DNA of 64,000 nt, from the NCBI RefSeq assembly GCF_004137795.1, contig NZ_NWTM01000001.1, positions 1,663,229 to 1,727,228 on the forward strand. Reading direction: 5' to 3'. The notes below the pieces were generated by a model that made no database searches, was not told where the DNA came from, and was given only the letters and a program-made list of their open reading frames with translations. Positions 23,784 through 30,250 of this stretch are shown here, piece by piece. Position numbers and translations under genes: made by a program. This stretch comes from Pectobacterium zantedeschiae (GTDB lineage Bacteria > Pseudomonadota > Gammaproteobacteria > Enterobacterales > Enterobacteriaceae). Positions within the stretch are counted from its first letter, which is position 1; each line of letters begins with the position of its first letter.

Positions 23784-24702
23784 ATTGTTTAACCCTCTTC
23801 ACGATTTCCGCCGTCAGTTTGCTTAGCGCAGGTTCAGCGCCTTTAAACGTGTCGCTAGCGGCATCAACATGTTTACTGATGGCTTCCAGCTTCTCGATAA
23901 CGTTTTTGCTGTCGACACCCTGCAACAAGGTGGCAACTTGCTTGACCTGTTTCAGCATTTCATTCGCTGCTTTATTGACTGCTGTAATTTCAGGCATCAT
24001 CTTCTCTGCCTGAACGGCTGCATCAGAAATGGCTTCCGCTGCTTTTTTAAACGCCGGCTCCACCTCGCTTAACGGGGTCAATACATTCCCGACTTGCGTA
24101 AGTAGCCCAGGAATTTGCAACAGCGCAGTTTCGGGATTTTTCTTCATCCGTTTTACAATCTGAACGGTGGTTTTCACCGCCTTAAAGGCCGATTGTGCCT
24201 TCTTGGCATACGTGACGGCCGTACGTAACGAAGTCGCAAAGTCACTTACCTTATCGACCACCTTGGTGATCGCGCTGACGTTGGGCACAGGTGTCTGTAT
24301 CGCAGGCGGTTTAAGCGGATTCTTCGGATCGCCAATATATTCGCGCAACGTCAGCTCCGCATTCATGGCCAATACGTTGCCTTTCGAGTCGGTATGTTGG
24401 CTGGTCGAGGTCAATGCGGTAATCACAAACCAGCCGCGATAATCCCCATTACCAAAGACCAACGCCATCGCCTGATGCGCCCGCATCGCCTCATTCAACC
24501 GCTTCAACTCCGTATCCGGCGTGCAGTACTGCTTGTGGAACACCAAGCTAATACGAATTTCATCCAGCTTCGCGCCGATGAATTGCAGACCGGGTTTACC
24601 TTCAATGCGGCTATGCTCGGCGTAATCTGCCCCGAATGAGGTATTAAAACCGTCCCAGTAGGCGGTCACTTTAAATTCAATATTTCCTAATACTGCAAAC
24701 AT
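23773..24702 (-). CDS. Tail protein gpU-like with long helical extension
   Basis: Residues 1 to about 130 resemble the phage tail gpU family: MFAVLGNIEFKVTAYW, then KPGLQFIGAKLDEIRISLVFHKQYC, GWFVITAL and LREYIGDP. The remaining 180 residues, from about 131, are lysine- and alanine-rich heptad-like helix with no glycine clusters. P2 gpU is about 159 residues, so this one is nearly doubled. gpU-like proteins act at the tube and baseplate interface. The start overlaps the tape-measure stop in TGATG. Confidence 0.8.
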   Translation of the reverse strand: MFAVLGNIEFKVTAYWDGFNTSFGADYAEHSRIEGKPGLQFIGAKLDEIRISLVFHKQYCTPDTELKRLNEAMRAHQAMALVFGNGDYRGWFVITALTSTSQHTDSKGNVLAMNAELTLREYIGDPKNPLKPPAIQTPVPNVSAITKVVDKVSDFATSLRTAVTYAKKAQSAFKAVKTTVQIVKRMKKNPETALLQIPGLLTQVGNVLTPLSEVEPAFKKAAEAISDAAVQAEKMMPEITAVNKAANEMLKQVKQVATLLQGVDSKNVIEKLEAISKHVDAASDTFKGAEPALSKLTAEIVKRVKQYAP

Positions 24703-27197
24703 CAGGCGTACCCCCTGCGCTCACGCTGAACGAGCAGCTTGTTCAACATATTTTCCAGTTCATTCATGCTAAGCGTCAGCGTCTTCGTCATTTCGGGCGT
24801 TGGCGCGGCCTTCTGACCGTTGAGATAAATGGTGGGAGAGAAGGCAACCTGAACACGCTCGGGAGAAGCCGCACTAGTGAGCTTGCTTTTCGTTCCGCCA
24901 GCAGGAAGCGTCATTGCAATACGTTCTTGCGGGGTTGGCACTGAGCCATCAGTCTTAGATGACTCAATACGAGGTGTTGGTTGTAGCGATAGCACAGATA
25001 CCGGCGTGGGTTGCAGAGCTGGCGGATTTATAACACTGGCAGCCACAGATTGACCGTTAGCGTCGATAGATACCGTTTTCGAGCCGATACCCAGAAAGTC
25101 TTTAACGCTATCGGGAATAAATTCGTCGATCGTTTTCAGGACACTTTTTAGCTCGGGGAAGTAACTGACCAGCCCCTTAACCAAGGAGTCAATAATCACG
25201 CCACCGAGCTCACTTAGACTGCCGGGAAGCTGAATGCCTAATTCGCTGACGGTATCAGCGAAGATGGAATACAGCACGCCGTAGGGTGACCAATCGAGCA
25301 GTAAAGCGGTAATACCCACTACACCACCGGATACCGCATTATTGAGTGCTTCCAGACCCGCATCGAAAGCATTGCCAATTTTTGAACCGAGATCTTTGAA
25401 AAATGCAGCGATTGGGTCAAAATAGTAGTAAATCAAAGCAACTACCCCCACAATCGCGGTAATTATCCAACCAACTGGTGTTGTCAGCAGCAAACGCCCC
25501 AGCACTAATACGGCTCGACCTGCCATCATCAAACCACTGCGTAATACGCCGCCAAACATACGTGCTAATGTTCCGGCTCCGCCTACCAGCCAGTTCAGAG
25601 CAGCCCCAACACCTTGCAATACCCCTGTCGTTCTTAATCCTGCATTAAACAGCAGCCAGCCACGTTGAAGCTGTAAAATTCCGCTCCAAACGCTCTGCAA
25701 AGGCGATAGCAATGTGGTAATCCCCAGTTTTGCACCGCTCAATACCATTCTGAACGCGAAGAAACCGGCAACGGCCATCACAATTCCGCGAACCAATTCA
25801 GGGTTCGCTGCCGTCCATGTCACCAGTTGATCCAGAATAGGGATCAGTGCATCGCTCAGAGAAACCAATACCGGCGTCAGTGCTTCGCCTACATTGAGCG
25901 CAATATTCAGCAGCGACGTTGTCATTCGATTCCAACGCGCGGTCAGCGTGTCATTTTGTCGGGCAAAGTCTAGACCCAGCGTTTGCGTGGCAGCCGGGCT
26001 ATTCATCACCTGCTGGTTAGATTGATAGCTCTGCCAGTTCTGTTTCATCGACATCGCATGATTTACCGCTTCCGGCGTACGGAATACCTCCTGCAGCCCG
26101 TAGCGCTGCATTAAACTTTGCTGTGCGTCTACGTTGCCCGCTTTACTGGCTTTATCCCACAGTTGCTGGAATTGACTGCCTTTGCTGTCGATAAGTTCGT
26201 TACTAATCTGAACCGCAGCGTCGTACTGTGAATACCCACCTTTCATATAGCTTTTGAGTGATGCGTTATAATCTACGCCCGCATTGTAGTAACTGTCGGC
26301 AATGTCCGTTCGCCCCACAGCATTCATGAAACTCCCCAGCCGCGCAGCCGTGTTCGCTTCCGTATCCGCACCTTTCGTGGCGCTCAGGCTGGAAACCAAT
26401 TGACTTAACGCCTGATTGCCCGTCTCCCCCATCGCCGCAAATCCTGGAGCCAGCGCAGTCGCGTATTGCGTCATCGACGCCATGGAGAACCCCTGTTTCG
26501 TGCCTGACAGCATGCGGGAGAAGGATTCCTCCAGCGCTTTCACACCTTTCAGGTTAAACACACCATCCAACGTGGCCGAAAGTGCAGTGAGATCGGACAT
26601 CGCCGCGCCAGAGGCCGTTGACGTTTTTCCCAGCACCGCAGCAACGTCTGTTGCCTGATCTGGCGACATGCCTTGCGCAAGCAACTGTCTGGTACTCCCG
26701 AGCAACGCATCCGGCGTTTGGTTCACCTGTTGAGAAGATTGACGCAGGCGCTGCCCCATCAATTTTTCTTGCTCGCTCGATATCCCATGAGCAACGCTGA
26801 TGCTGCGTAACTGCGCCTCAAATGACGCATAACGTGTGACTGACGCCACTATCGGCTTCATGACAGAACTAAACTGCTCACGCTTAGCCTGAAAATCACC
26901 AGCGAGTTCATCGCGACGGCTGTGTAGTATTTCCTGACGTGACTGGCTACGCGCCAGCCGTTCCTGATTGGTTTCTAGTTCACGTAGCGACTGGCTCAGC
27001 CGTGACGTCGCCTGTGTGCTGCGCGATATCGCCTGCGAGCTGATGATGCCAAAACGTTCAAGCGACTGATTAAACTGCCGCTGCCGCTCTTGCGCCTGTT
27101 GGAGGCTATCATTAAGTGACAGCAGCGATTTTTTTGTGTCATCCAGCGTGGCGCCAAACGCCCTGCCCAGCATGACACCGTTTAAAAGCATATCCAC
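24702..27197 (-). CDS. Tail tape-measure protein
   Basis: An 831-residue protein: about 130 residues of coiled coil (SLQQAQERQRQFNQSLERF and on), a globular region with TP901-type tape-measure patterns (LRQSSQQVNQTPDALLGSTRQLLAQG), several hydrophobic segments at about 460-480 and 555-600, and a Pro-rich tail. Tape-measure proteins set tail length, which would be around 125 nm by the usual 0.15 nm per residue rule. The start is GTG 27197 or ATG 27191. It follows three hairpins and overlaps the U-like gene by one base. Confidence 0.9.
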   Translation of the reverse strand: MDMLLNGVMLGRAFGATLDDTKKSLLSLNDSLQQAQERQRQFNQSLERFGIISSQAISRSTQATSRLSQSLRELETNQERLARSQSRQEILHSRRDELAGDFQAKREQFSSVMKPIVASVTRYASFEAQLRSISVAHGISSEQEKLMGQRLRQSSQQVNQTPDALLGSTRQLLAQGMSPDQATDVAAVLGKTSTASGAAMSDLTALSATLDGVFNLKGVKALEESFSRMLSGTKQGFSMASMTQYATALAPGFAAMGETGNQALSQLVSSLSATKGADTEANTAARLGSFMNAVGRTDIADSYYNAGVDYNASLKSYMKGGYSQYDAAVQISNELIDSKGSQFQQLWDKASKAGNVDAQQSLMQRYGLQEVFRTPEAVNHAMSMKQNWQSYQSNQQVMNSPAATQTLGLDFARQNDTLTARWNRMTTSLLNIALNVGEALTPVLVSLSDALIPILDQLVTWTAANPELVRGIVMAVAGFFAFRMVLSGAKLGITTLLSPLQSVWSGILQLQRGWLLFNAGLRTTGVLQGVGAALNWLVGGAGTLARMFGGVLRSGLMMAGRAVLVLGRLLLTTPVGWIITAIVGVVALIYYYFDPIAAFFKDLGSKIGNAFDAGLEALNNAVSGGVVGITALLLDWSPYGVLYSIFADTVSELGIQLPGSLSELGGVIIDSLVKGLVSYFPELKSVLKTIDEFIPDSVKDFLGIGSKTVSIDANGQSVAASVINPPALQPTPVSVLSLQPTPRIESSKTDGSVPTPQERIAMTLPAGGTKSKLTSAASPERVQVAFSPTIYLNGQKAAPTPEMTKTLTLSMNELENMLNKLLVQRERRGYA

Positions 27198-27910: not shown

Positions 27911-27930
27911 AAAAAAGGGGCCGAAGCCCC
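27911..27930 (-). terminator. Terminator inside the tail operon, after the ferredoxin-like gene
   Basis: Minus strand: GGGGC-TTCG-GCCCC followed by six T. The UUCG tetraloop and T-run make it a classical intrinsic terminator. It lies 18 bases after the ferredoxin-like stop, so sheath and tube transcripts would exceed those of downstream baseplate genes. Confidence 0.8.
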
Positions 27931-27948
27931 TTGTTCGCTGAGTAAGAA

Positions 27949-28242
27949 TTAACGCAGCTCTTCTTCTGCATAGAAGCGAACAACGCAGTTGCTCAGAGGG
28001 TAAGACGTATCGGTCAGAAAGAATCCAGCCGCTTTCTGTTCATCACTTAAAAATGATCCATCGGTCTGATCTACCTGACCAGAAATCAGACGCGCTGCAG
28101 ATGACCCATCCGCACCAGCACGACTGGAATACGGCAAATCGAAGCCCGCCTCTTCTCCTGCATCCAAAATGTAGACATCCTCACGGCACTGGAAATGAAT
28201 ATTATTTTCCAAGTCAATAATATCAAATACTTTTGCTGACAT
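27949..28242 (-). CDS. Ferredoxin-fold protein lacking all four cluster cysteines
   Basis: The 97-residue product has the size and framework of plant-type [2Fe-2S] ferredoxins: FQC.EDVYILDAGEEAGFDLPYS, then SGQVDQTDGSFLSDEQ.AAGF.LT, and a final EEEL. The loop that should be CRAGxCxxC reads SRAGADGSS, and the fourth cysteine in LTC is LTD, so the ligand positions are S40, D45, S48 and D78. The only cysteines are C19 and C86. A normal cluster is therefore unlikely. It lies between the tube and chaperone genes, where P2 and Mu have no gene. The ATG at 28242 follows GAGGT. Its role is unknown; a structural or scaffold use of the fold is inference. Confidence 0.8.
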   Translation of the reverse strand: MSAKVFDIIDLENNIHFQCREDVYILDAGEEAGFDLPYSSRAGADGSSAARLISGQVDQTDGSFLSDEQKAAGFFLTDTSYPLSNCVVRFYAEEELR

Positions 28243-28298
28243 AGTCACCTCACTTATTGATAGAAATGCCCACCACACTGGCGGGCTTGAAAGATAAA

Positions 28299-28823
28299 TT
28301 AACCGCCGATATTGGCGCGGTAACTGTTCAGTTGATCCACGCCGCCCACCATGAAGATGTTGGACATATAATCCAGCTCCAGCAGGTCTTCACCGTTCAT
28401 CACCTGCTTGATGTAGGTGCAGTTGAATGCACTGCTGAAATCCGGGTTTTCGTGCTGCTTGAACGTGCCCAGCGGATTCTTTTTGAACATGATGGTCATG
28501 TACGTCACCAGCGGCACTTCTTCGATACGGCCTTGAGAACCATAGCGTTCCACGCTGGAGCGACACTGTAGCGCCAGCGACTGGTACGGATTCGCTGCTG
28601 CCAGCATCGCTTCGCGGTAGAAGGAGTTCCATTTGATCTCGCCTTCCAGCTTGTCGAAGCCCGCAGGCAGTTCGATCTTGCCGACCATACCCAGCGCCTT
28701 GTGCTCCTGCATAATCATGGAGACATCAGGCAGTTTGATTTCCTGGGCACGCCCCAACAGGTTGGTGCCGTTGATGTAGATGTTGGCGTTGGTAATACGG
28801 TTTACTTCAATTTTCCCGGCCAT
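28299..28823 (-). CDS. Major tail tube protein (P2 gpFII-like)
   Basis: This 174-residue protein matches the contractile-tail tube family: NRITNANIYINGTNLLGRAQEIKLPDVSM, HKALGMVGKIELPAGFDKLEGEIKWNSFY and VPLVTYMTIMFKK. It stacks in hexameric rings inside the sheath. Its ATG overlaps the sheath stop in TGATG. A terminator follows the next gene, which fits the high demand for sheath and tube. Confidence 0.92.
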   Translation of the reverse strand: MAGKIEVNRITNANIYINGTNLLGRAQEIKLPDVSMIMQEHKALGMVGKIELPAGFDKLEGEIKWNSFYREAMLAAANPYQSLALQCRSSVERYGSQGRIEEVPLVTYMTIMFKKNPLGTFKQHENPDFSSAFNCTYIKQVMNGEDLLELDYMSNIFMVGGVDQLNSYRANIGG

Positions 28824-30250
28824 CAGTTAGTGCCCTCCAGCGTTACCAGGTATTCCGAGGTGATCTCCGTCTCAAAGGTCAGACGCTCAAGCGGTGGCGG
28901 CGGAGTGAATTTGTAGTTAAGCAACAGGTGCCCTGCCGCCAGTTCGGTTTGCTCATTACGTGCAGCATCAAACCAGCATTTGAAGCCCAGCAGTGCGCCG
29001 TCACCTATCAGCTTGCGACCGTAGGCGTTGACGGACTCCACCAGCGCATCGATCAGCGCCTGGTTGATCGGCATATCGATATACTGCTGGCTGAAATAGC
29101 GGATAGACTCGTTAATCACATCGCCAGTACGACGCACGTTTTCGAAGTTCTTCATGTGCGTTACGGTTGGCCAGGCCGCGGTGCGGTTGCCCCACAGACG
29201 CAGGCCGGAACCGTAGCTGTTGAAGATGGTGCTGATGCCTTGCTCGTTCAGCAGGTTCACTTCACTCTGCGGATCGTCGATCATCGCGGACAACTGGCGT
29301 TCTACGCCGGTGATCCCTTTGATTTCCTGATTAGATGACGACCACCAGAAACCTTTCTCCAGATCGACTTTGGCACGCAAGCCAGCGGCTCGCGCCGACA
29401 GCGGTTCCAGACGTTCACTGTTAGTTTCCGCGTCATACACTTTTACGTGCGGGTAGCACAAACGAGCGCGCTCGGAGCTGGTGTTGAAATTGATCGTGCC
29501 TTCCGGGCCACGGCCGCTCAGCGCCTGCGCAAAGGTAGTACCGATTGGCGCATCGATATAGGCAATAGCGCCCAGTTTGTCTGCCAGCGAGATCAGTTCA
29601 GTCGTTACGCTGTTTTGCGTACAGAACACTGGAGAAATCAGAATCTTGGCGAAGAAGCCGTACAGGTTATAGGTATCGTTCAGCAGCTTCATACCGGTAC
29701 GCTTGCCCGCGGCGTTGATGCTGCCGATGATGTCGGCGGCAGTCACTTTCGTCACATCAGCAAACTCATAAGACGCGCTGACCACTGCGGAGACATCAAT
29801 GTTTTTACCCAGGTTTTTCAGGACGCCGGTTTGCGCATCCAGCGTATAATCCTGACCTTCCACAAACGGCTCGCCGCCTTCTGCCGCCGTCAGCACCAGT
29901 TTGGCGATCACGCGGTTAGCCAGTTGCGCCGTACTGGTCGCTTTATCAAACGTGACTTTTTCCGCGCTCACAGAAGATTTGTGCTTCGCCGGATCCAGCA
30001 CGTTGATCACCAGAACTGTACCTGCACCATGATCGTAAATCGCATCCAGCGCCTGTGGGATGGTATAGCCACCGAACTGGCTACCAAACTGCGCCGCGTC
30101 TTTTTCGGACAGGCACAGCGTAACGTCATTTACCGCACCCTGTGGTGCTGTACCAATCAACCCAATTACCGCAGATTTGACGGTCTTCACCGGACGAGCA
30201 CCGGTTTCAACTTCAATCGTTTCTACACCGTGTAAATAATTAGCGGCCAA
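28823..30250 (-). CDS. Tail sheath protein
   Basis: The 475-residue protein is a contractile sheath subunit: YLHGVETIEVETGARPVKTVKSAVIGLIGTAP at the start, GAGTVLVINVLDP, the middle ILISPVFC and DAPIGTTFAQA, and late WGNRTAAWP..THMKNFENVRRTGDVINESI and EYLVTLEG. The length is between P2 FI (396) and Mu L (495). The start codon is TTG, preceded at close spacing by a very strong ribosome site GGAGGTGA that lies inside the end of the upstream gene, so output may still be high. Confidence 0.92.
   Translation of the reverse strand: MAANYLHGVETIEVETGARPVKTVKSAVIGLIGTAPQGAVNDVTLCLSEKDAAQFGSQFGGYTIPQALDAIYDHGAGTVLVINVLDPAKHKSSVSAEKVTFDKATSTAQLANRVIAKLVLTAAEGGEPFVEGQDYTLDAQTGVLKNLGKNIDVSAVVSASYEFADVTKVTAADIIGSINAAGKRTGMKLLNDTYNLYGFFAKILISPVFCTQNSVTTELISLADKLGAIAYIDAPIGTTFAQALSGRGPEGTINFNTSSERARLCYPHVKVYDAETNSERLEPLSARAAGLRAKVDLEKGFWWSSSNQEIKGITGVERQLSAMIDDPQSEVNLLNEQGISTIFNSYGSGLRLWGNRTAAWPTVTHMKNFENVRRTGDVINESIRYFSQQYIDMPINQALIDALVESVNAYGRKLIGDGALLGFKCWFDAARNEQTELAAGHLLLNYKFTPPPPLERLTFETEITSEYLVTLEGTN

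Follow-up and report, generated by a model that had tools for sequence, protein, structure and literature searches.

The carotovoricin cluster (ctv) of Pectobacterium is known to contain a gene described as a ferredoxin. Arizala and Arif (2019; PMC6963963) listed a 'ferredoxin (2Fe-2S)' in ctv that is absent in some species, and Shyntum (2019; PMC6813493) deleted the ctv ferredoxin gene, 'fer', in strain Pcb1692, where competition and the induced bacteriocin were like those of the wild type; the authors considered that an S-type pyocin may hide an effect, or else that 'fer' may be dispensable. A sequence-only reading of the DNA analysed here had stated that it knew of no published role for this gene, which needs amending in view of the 2019 deletion with no visible phenotype. 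By its cluster and its name the gene studied here corresponds to 'fer', the ferredoxin gene of the ctv cluster in print; the available text of that report describes 'fer' just as a ferredoxin and leaves cysteine loss unmentioned. The open-access literature searched, as far as its accessible text goes, contained no mention of a loss of the cysteines or the cluster from the ctv ferredoxin, nor any carotovoricin proteomics on the ferredoxin-like protein. According to a 2026 pangenome study (PMC13195805), 88 of 365 clusters contain a gene called 'nitric oxide deoxygenase'; this gene, variable in carotovoricin, may be the ferredoxin-like gene under a wrong name.

Plant-type [2Fe-2S] ferredoxins share with the 97-residue protein studied here the length, the acidic character and the beta-grasp fold, with identities of 46-57% (to 33 phage ferredoxins), but in the latter all four cysteines of the cluster are replaced. 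The cyanophage ferredoxins (phrog_844) are likewise phage-borne and of the plant type, and differ in keeping these cysteines. The pectocins M1, M2 and P, ferredoxin-headed bacteriocins that enter cells by the receptor FusA, have the genus and the presence of FusA in common with our protein, which shares 55% identity with the pectocin M1 ferredoxin domain; it differs in ending at the ferredoxin domain, with neither a toxin domain nor ligand cysteines, and the carotovoricin proteins form a clade of their own outside the pectocins. Plant ferredoxin blocks killing by pectocin M1 (PMC3302902). The mFDX-like protein of plant mitochondrial complex I resembles our protein in the loss of a ligand; it binds no cluster, has a structural role and holds a single metal ion in place of the cluster, and it differs in being of the mitochondrial type, with one cysteine lost in land plants, and part of a respiratory complex (PMC10069907).

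The ferredoxin-like gene and its place in the cluster

The window, by which we mean the whole stretch of 64,000 nucleotides of Pectobacterium zantedeschiae that was analysed, contains the gene (ctv 'fer') on the minus strand from 28242 to 27949 (27949..28242), an open reading frame of 97 residues from ATG to stop, which the reading frame, homology, alignment and a structure model together characterise as a cluster-free ferredoxin-like gene. The protein matches Pfam Fer2 (E 2.7e-6, above the family cut-off) and 54 distinct PDB sequences, the best solved match being pectocin M1 (8jc1, 1.2e-25), and its matches to plant-type ferredoxins span almost the full length. It scores 92.8 bits against the NCBIfam model TIGR02008 'ferredoxin [2Fe-2S]' (cut-off 81.15), so that an annotation pipeline trusting TIGR02008 would label it 'ferredoxin [2Fe-2S]'; a curated model thereby assigns this name although every ligand of a normal cluster is missing. 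The Fer2, TIGR02008 and PDB matches bear out the sequence-only reading, which had recognised here a plant-type ferredoxin framework of 97 residues and its kinship to the ferredoxin domains of pectocin M. The sole matching PHROGs family is filed under moron/auxiliary metabolic, a defence-family search with the protein gave no match, and no signal peptide is visible by eye at its N-terminus. Its carotovoricin homologues are 97-103 residues long.

As had been read from the sequence, the gene lies between a tail tube gene (FII type, PF04985; 28299..28823, minus strand), its upstream neighbour, and a tail assembly chaperone gene (E type, PF10109; 27500..27820, minus strand), its downstream neighbour. 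The tail sheath gene occupies 28823..30250 (minus strand), and a long ORF without Pfam match at 24702..27197 (minus strand) occupies the tape measure position, judged by its location and length. A sequence scan found a G+C-rich leader hairpin (28268..28286, minus strand) after the stop codon of the tube and before the start of the ferredoxin-like gene, and the latter is followed by a terminator-like hairpin, AAGGGGC-TTCG-GCCCC and then a T run (27911..27932, minus strand), which was read from the sequence and is not in the output of the hairpin scan.

At the carotovoricin slot the gene occurs in 13 of 25 Pectobacterium genomes (one per species), intact in 12 and frameshifted in one. Counted by cluster, 13 of the 21 carotovoricin clusters whose tube is 98-100% identical to that of the window carry it and eight do not; the gene is thus found in other carotovoricin clusters, and it is no core protein present in all of them. 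The gap between tube and chaperone measures 477-509 bases in 12 clusters and 142-159 in eight, that of genome G022 not being spanned. The short form of the slot has a terminator-like hairpin (GGGGC, a four-base loop, GCCCC, T's) and no visible gene, and in the long form the ferredoxin-like gene is placed before such a hairpin, which is therefore also present in clusters without the gene. The leader hairpin was seen in 12/12 printed leaders of clusters with the gene and was missing from 4/4 without it, with L085 retaining its first bases; this comparison covers the 16 of 26 requested sequences that matched the search expression (12 with and four without the gene), and the hairpin of the window comes from the separate scan. 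The copy of G022 (L014, 1300-1790) is frameshifted and immediately preceded by an IS-like sequence.

P2 had been said to have no gene at this place, and three of three Peduoviridae records agree, having no extra gene there (in one of them an unlabelled 91-aa ORF was taken as the chaperone). An occupied slot between tube and chaperone is not unique, since other tail clusters have small ORFs in it, among them phage PhiKM, with a tube 80% identical, and phage Komp_PAO1_1, with an ORF of 39 aa. A second tail cluster of Pectobacterium, whose tube is 83% identical, was seen in G007, G022 and G013 (L096, L097 and L098), and a 66-aa ORF fills this slot in L096 and L097 (G007 and G022).

Loss of the cluster cysteines

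The ligands had been read as replaced by S40, D45, S48 and D78, and the alignment confirms all four positions. Codon 40, the first ligand position (28123..28125, minus strand), encodes Ser in the window and S, G or D in homologues; codon 45, the second (28108..28110, minus strand), Asp, or Ser in L106; codon 48, the third (28099..28101, minus strand), Ser, or Thr in L108; and codon 78, the fourth (28009..28011, minus strand), Asp in every carotovoricin row aligned. The 18 carotovoricin rows accordingly have the pattern SDSD or GDSD, except L106 (DSSD) and L108 (SDTD), and within this one alignment none of the 18 has a cysteine at any ligand position, so that by homology and beta-grasp fold the protein is of the plant ferredoxin type and by its ligands it is not. 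With L105, a homologue from another tailocin described below, D78 is found in 19/19 rows, D45 in 18/19 and Ser or Thr at position 48 in 19/19. R51 is constant in the carotovoricin rows and is Leu in L105. The 18 rows should not be counted as independent cases, since some of them probably represent one strain present in two collections; IMG/VR contributed ten contigs and then L106 and L108.

All 24 other plant-type ferredoxins aligned, including pectocins from the same genomes, keep the pattern CCCC; these controls were chosen from the fetched loci and PDB matches, leaving out L020 (broken across two frames) and L021 (another ferredoxin type). The same pattern is kept by 80/80 phage ferredoxins, the best 80 of 592 confirmed phage loci, which are those nearest to a mainly cyanophage-like query alignment with cysteines in seven of its eight rows, and which were found with two patterns, one of them fixing C or S at position 40.

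The cysteine-less state holds over carotovoricin copies of 57-100% identity, and the loss is fixed at this place in all copies read, each of which was also inspected individually. Decay of a single copy was considered and rejected, since all copies read are without ligands and dN/dS is about 0.1. With all four cluster cysteines replaced, an ordinary cluster or electron transfer is not expected, and judged by the alignment the protein very probably lacks a normal [2Fe-2S] cluster and acts through binding and not through electron transfer.

Structure model, phylogeny and selection

An alignment of 13 family rows alone gave a poor model (pLDDT 53), and combining ten family rows with 33 phage ferredoxins raised the pLDDT to 94.7, so the good model leans on the ferredoxin rows in the alignment. 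Given these rows, the protein is modelled with the beta-grasp fold of ferredoxins. The model fits ferredoxins with TM 0.82-0.93 among the 50 best chains listed, pectocin M1 with TM 0.91 and 1.0 A, and the pectocin domains overall with 1.0-1.1 A. The loss of all four ligands together with this predicted fold agrees with the earlier view that the fold was reused without its cluster. Neither of the two outcomes that the sequence-only reading had named as refuting it was seen: among the 18 rows no homologue at this place has a ligand cysteine, and the modelled fold is not a different one.

Trees were built after removal of the near-copies L040 and L044, and the frameshifted L014 was excluded from the trees and from dN/dS. 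When the ligand columns were included, 16 carotovoricin rows and L105 lay on one side of a branch with a support of 100/99. Without these columns the carotovoricin rows still grouped together (99/97) outside the pectocins, which with the orphan ferredoxins formed a separate group (96/96), and L105 was not placed with the carotovoricin rows, a joint clade not being rejected (p-AU 0.273). The branch of L105 is very long, so that common origin and convergence are both possible. An origin of the carotovoricin ferredoxin from a pectocin that lost its toxin domain was not supported, the two falling in separate clades.

Over 66 pairs from 12 genomes the dN/dS of the ferredoxin-like gene is 0.105 (mean dN 0.113, mean dS 1.08), and the flanking genes are less diverged, with a mean dS of 0.27 for the tube and 0.12 for the chaperone. 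The gene appears constrained yet far more diverged than its neighbours, a pattern of substitutions that would fit an exchanged or older cassette. Its GC3 is 0.40 in the window and 0.27-0.32 in four other copies, compared with 0.55-0.73 for four tail genes of the window. A promoter scan listed just two weak promoter-like sites, which overlap each other and lie within the ORF. Being optional, of foreign composition, between core genes and under selection, the gene looks like optional cargo of carotovoricin.

A homologue in a different tailocin

Seven of the 392 genomes of a family sample had a strong match to the protein (E below 1e-15, a line set once the gap from 1.7e-20 to 7.4e-12 had become apparent): four Pectobacterium, G138 (a pectocin-like protein), G365 (a four-cysteine ferredoxin) and G067. 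The other 38 of the 45 matching genomes fall beyond this line, nearly all with frames of 331-433 aa; left out with them is a 130-aa frame of G345, a genome with a FusA homologue at 45% identity. Searches of the order and the class (394 and 369 genomes, E up to 1e-12) gave, beyond Pectobacterium, only two matches, in frames of 372 and 415 aa.

The G067 protein, identical to L105, carries GDSD at the ligand positions and shares 49% identity with the window protein across 83 residues. Its gene is the first after the antiterminator, between the antitermination Q gene and a holin of a 15-kb cluster, which contains two holins, endolysin, spanin, sheath, tube, tape measure, hub, wedge and fibre genes, and in which a short tail protein occupies the chaperone's place. 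No head genes were recognised in this cluster; one protein is labelled 'portal protein' by PHROG, a label also given to its counterpart in carotovoricin, itself headless. By BLASTP the sheaths and tubes of the G067 cluster and of carotovoricin have no similarity, and the Pfam sheath domain is present in both sheaths. The cysteine-less ferredoxin is thus common to two tailocin types and occupies a different place in each.

Relation to FusA and FusB

The genome of the window encodes a receptor of 865 aa matching FusA (4zgv, E 0), beside an M16 protease gene. Genes near it are presumably fusB- and fusD-like, judging by gene order and size against the Fus operon. A FusA homologue is present in all 13 genomes with a carotovoricin copy, at 70-100% identity in nine and 44-46% in four, and in G067 at 58%. 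The family sample has FusA in 23/392 genomes and 13/154 genera, and in 7/7 genomes (p 9e-10) and 4/4 genera (p 3e-5) with a plant-type ferredoxin; relatedness and plant association are uncorrected in these values, and the FusA counts include four homologues at 44-46% (G015, G190, G273 and G345) that may be another receptor, without which FusA is kept in 6/7 ferredoxin genomes and still in 4/4 genera. Both genera with cysteine-less ferredoxins have FusA (p 0.007, uncorrected for relatedness and plant association). This association at the genus level is suggestive and not proof, and it may only mark plant-associated lineages; within Pectobacterium the presence of FusA does not separate carriers (13/13) from non-carriers (10/12; p 0.22).

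The residues of ferredoxin that contact FusB, taken from PMC13253070, are more variable in the carotovoricin family than almost any randomly drawn set of positions (0.997) and are not unusually variable in other ferredoxins. In 11 of 18 rows Tyr or Ile replaces F64, a residue central to FusB binding. Such unusual variability of the FusB-contact face speaks against a simple import substrate. The FusA-contact face of pectocin M1, mapped by NMR (PMC5095587), is hypervariable in other ferredoxins and average in the carotovoricin family, which rather suggests, from the sequences compared, a constant partner. The predictions in PMC13253070 give a different FusA-contact face, centred on the cluster region, which is the part altered in the carotovoricin family, and the binding place of FusA on ferredoxin is disputed. 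Identity to pectocin M1 over the FusA face was uninformative (0.37 for six pectocins and 0.37 for eleven family rows). The sequence-only reading had also proposed a receptor-directed piece: the lineages with the gene do carry FusA, and the tests of the contact faces are mixed or against it.

Among the strains compared, FusA sequences differ by up to 59%, and yet the FusA-contact face mapped for pectocin M1 is not hypervariable in the carotovoricin family. Co-variation of the ferredoxin-like protein with FusA (Mantel r 0.52, p 0.004-0.009; r 0.53 after controlling for gyrB) was not used as evidence; it drops to r 0.38 (p 0.07) when G005 and G017 are removed and to r 0.21 (p 0.15) in the nine type-A strains. 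The ferredoxins of the three type-B genomes are as unlike each other as the others.

Discussion

A ferredoxin fold kept by selection after the loss of its cofactor site, in two tailocin types, implies a binding role, since a selected protein without a cofactor site most likely works by binding. The best overall explanation, which we favour tentatively, is a fixed, cluster-free protein of the ferredoxin fold that is optional cargo of a tailocin and serves as a released competitor for FusA. The protein would be made together with the tailocin and set free at lysis of the producer (release by lysis is assumed); outside, as an iron-less mimic of plant ferredoxin, it would compete for the FusA of neighbouring cells and so block both ferredoxin piracy and the entry of ferredoxin-headed pectocins, while the mimic itself would not be pulled in by FusB. 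Taken jointly these steps are possible, if doubtful, and four things lead us to weigh them highest: the genus, the fold, the association with FusA and the competition of plant ferredoxin with pectocin M1 known from print. Against them speak the variable FusB-contact face with its changed F64, the FusA-contact face that is average despite diverse receptors, the weakening of the co-variation with FusA in the smaller sets, the lack of a visible signal peptide and the deletion of 'fer' with no phenotype. The genus imports plant ferredoxin and kills with ferredoxin-headed toxins, which makes the released competitor a testable proposal for tailocin cargo genes. The wider claim, that tailocins carry a class of iron-less ferredoxin mimics which jam a protein-import receptor of neighbours after the producer has burst, seems unlikely; if it is true, such a decoy would deny rivals the iron of the plant and shield kin from ferredoxin-headed bacteriocins, and a single lysis event would yield a piercing weapon and a receptor blocker.

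Two other readings come close to the released competitor. The gene might be an intracellular moron, whose product binds a conserved host protein (e.g., an Fe-S, redox or stress regulator) during tailocin production. Cargo genes that are optional, AT-rich and selected are typical of phage morons, and the gene has these traits; its G067 copy directly follows the antiterminator and the only PHROGs family that it matches carries the moron label, but neither a partner nor a good promoter of its own nor a defence-family match was found, and we give this reading a somewhat smaller chance than the released competitor. A particle-associated accessory, in which the ferredoxin fold would dock on the near-invariant tube, the sheath or the chaperone and tune assembly, length or stability, appears slightly less likely again. 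It would fit the place of the gene in the tail operon, immediately behind that of the tube, and the 98-100% identity of the tube across the genus, and several positions of the beta-sheet face are constant here and variable in other ferredoxins, as expected with a constant partner; elsewhere, cluster-less ferredoxins are structural, as is the plant mFDX-like protein in complex I (PMC10069907). However, eight of the 21 clusters with the same tube do without the gene, the G067 homologue stands before a holin and beside a tube and sheath without BLASTP similarity, and the mean dS of the gene is far above that of tube and chaperone. The earlier suggestion that the fold serves the tail generally, as a structural or chaperone component, is not supported, because the gene is missing from those eight clusters and its homologue is placed elsewhere in a different tailocin.

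The Asp/Ser tetrad could instead form a new metal site, with metal binding and not a [2Fe-2S] cluster mattering for function, as the near-constancy of positions 45, 48 and 78 over the 19 rows and the single metal ion of the mFDX-like protein (PMC10069907) would allow; since position 40 varies (S, G or D), position 45 is Ser in L106, and the Asp residues may merely fill a polar pocket, perhaps paired with R51, we consider such a site improbable. That the protein is a functionless ferredoxin in decay might be read from its lost ligands and from the G022 copy with its frameshift and upstream IS-like sequence, but the frame is open in 12 of the 13 copies of the genus, dN/dS is about 0.1, and the cysteines are absent across the whole span of identities, which makes decay very improbable.

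Other plant-type ferredoxin genes

The pectocin-like gene of G138, which belongs to another genus (L100, 9107-9976), encodes a ferredoxin head with a pectocin M-like C-terminal part and lies directly after endolysin and spanin-like genes in a prophage lysis region (named by eye); this genome also has a FusA homologue. A four-cysteine plant-type ferredoxin of 97-100 aa was seen beside a protein of about 225 aa in L017, L018, L019, L050 and L111, where seen with a secreted-looking protein of about 110-126 aa nearby. Orphan ferredoxins that keep all four cysteines and end in a short tail (111-118 aa in total) occur at G000:C3:789450-789722 (L002) and in L026, L028 and L029; they group with the pectocin domains in the tree and are perhaps pectocin remnants.
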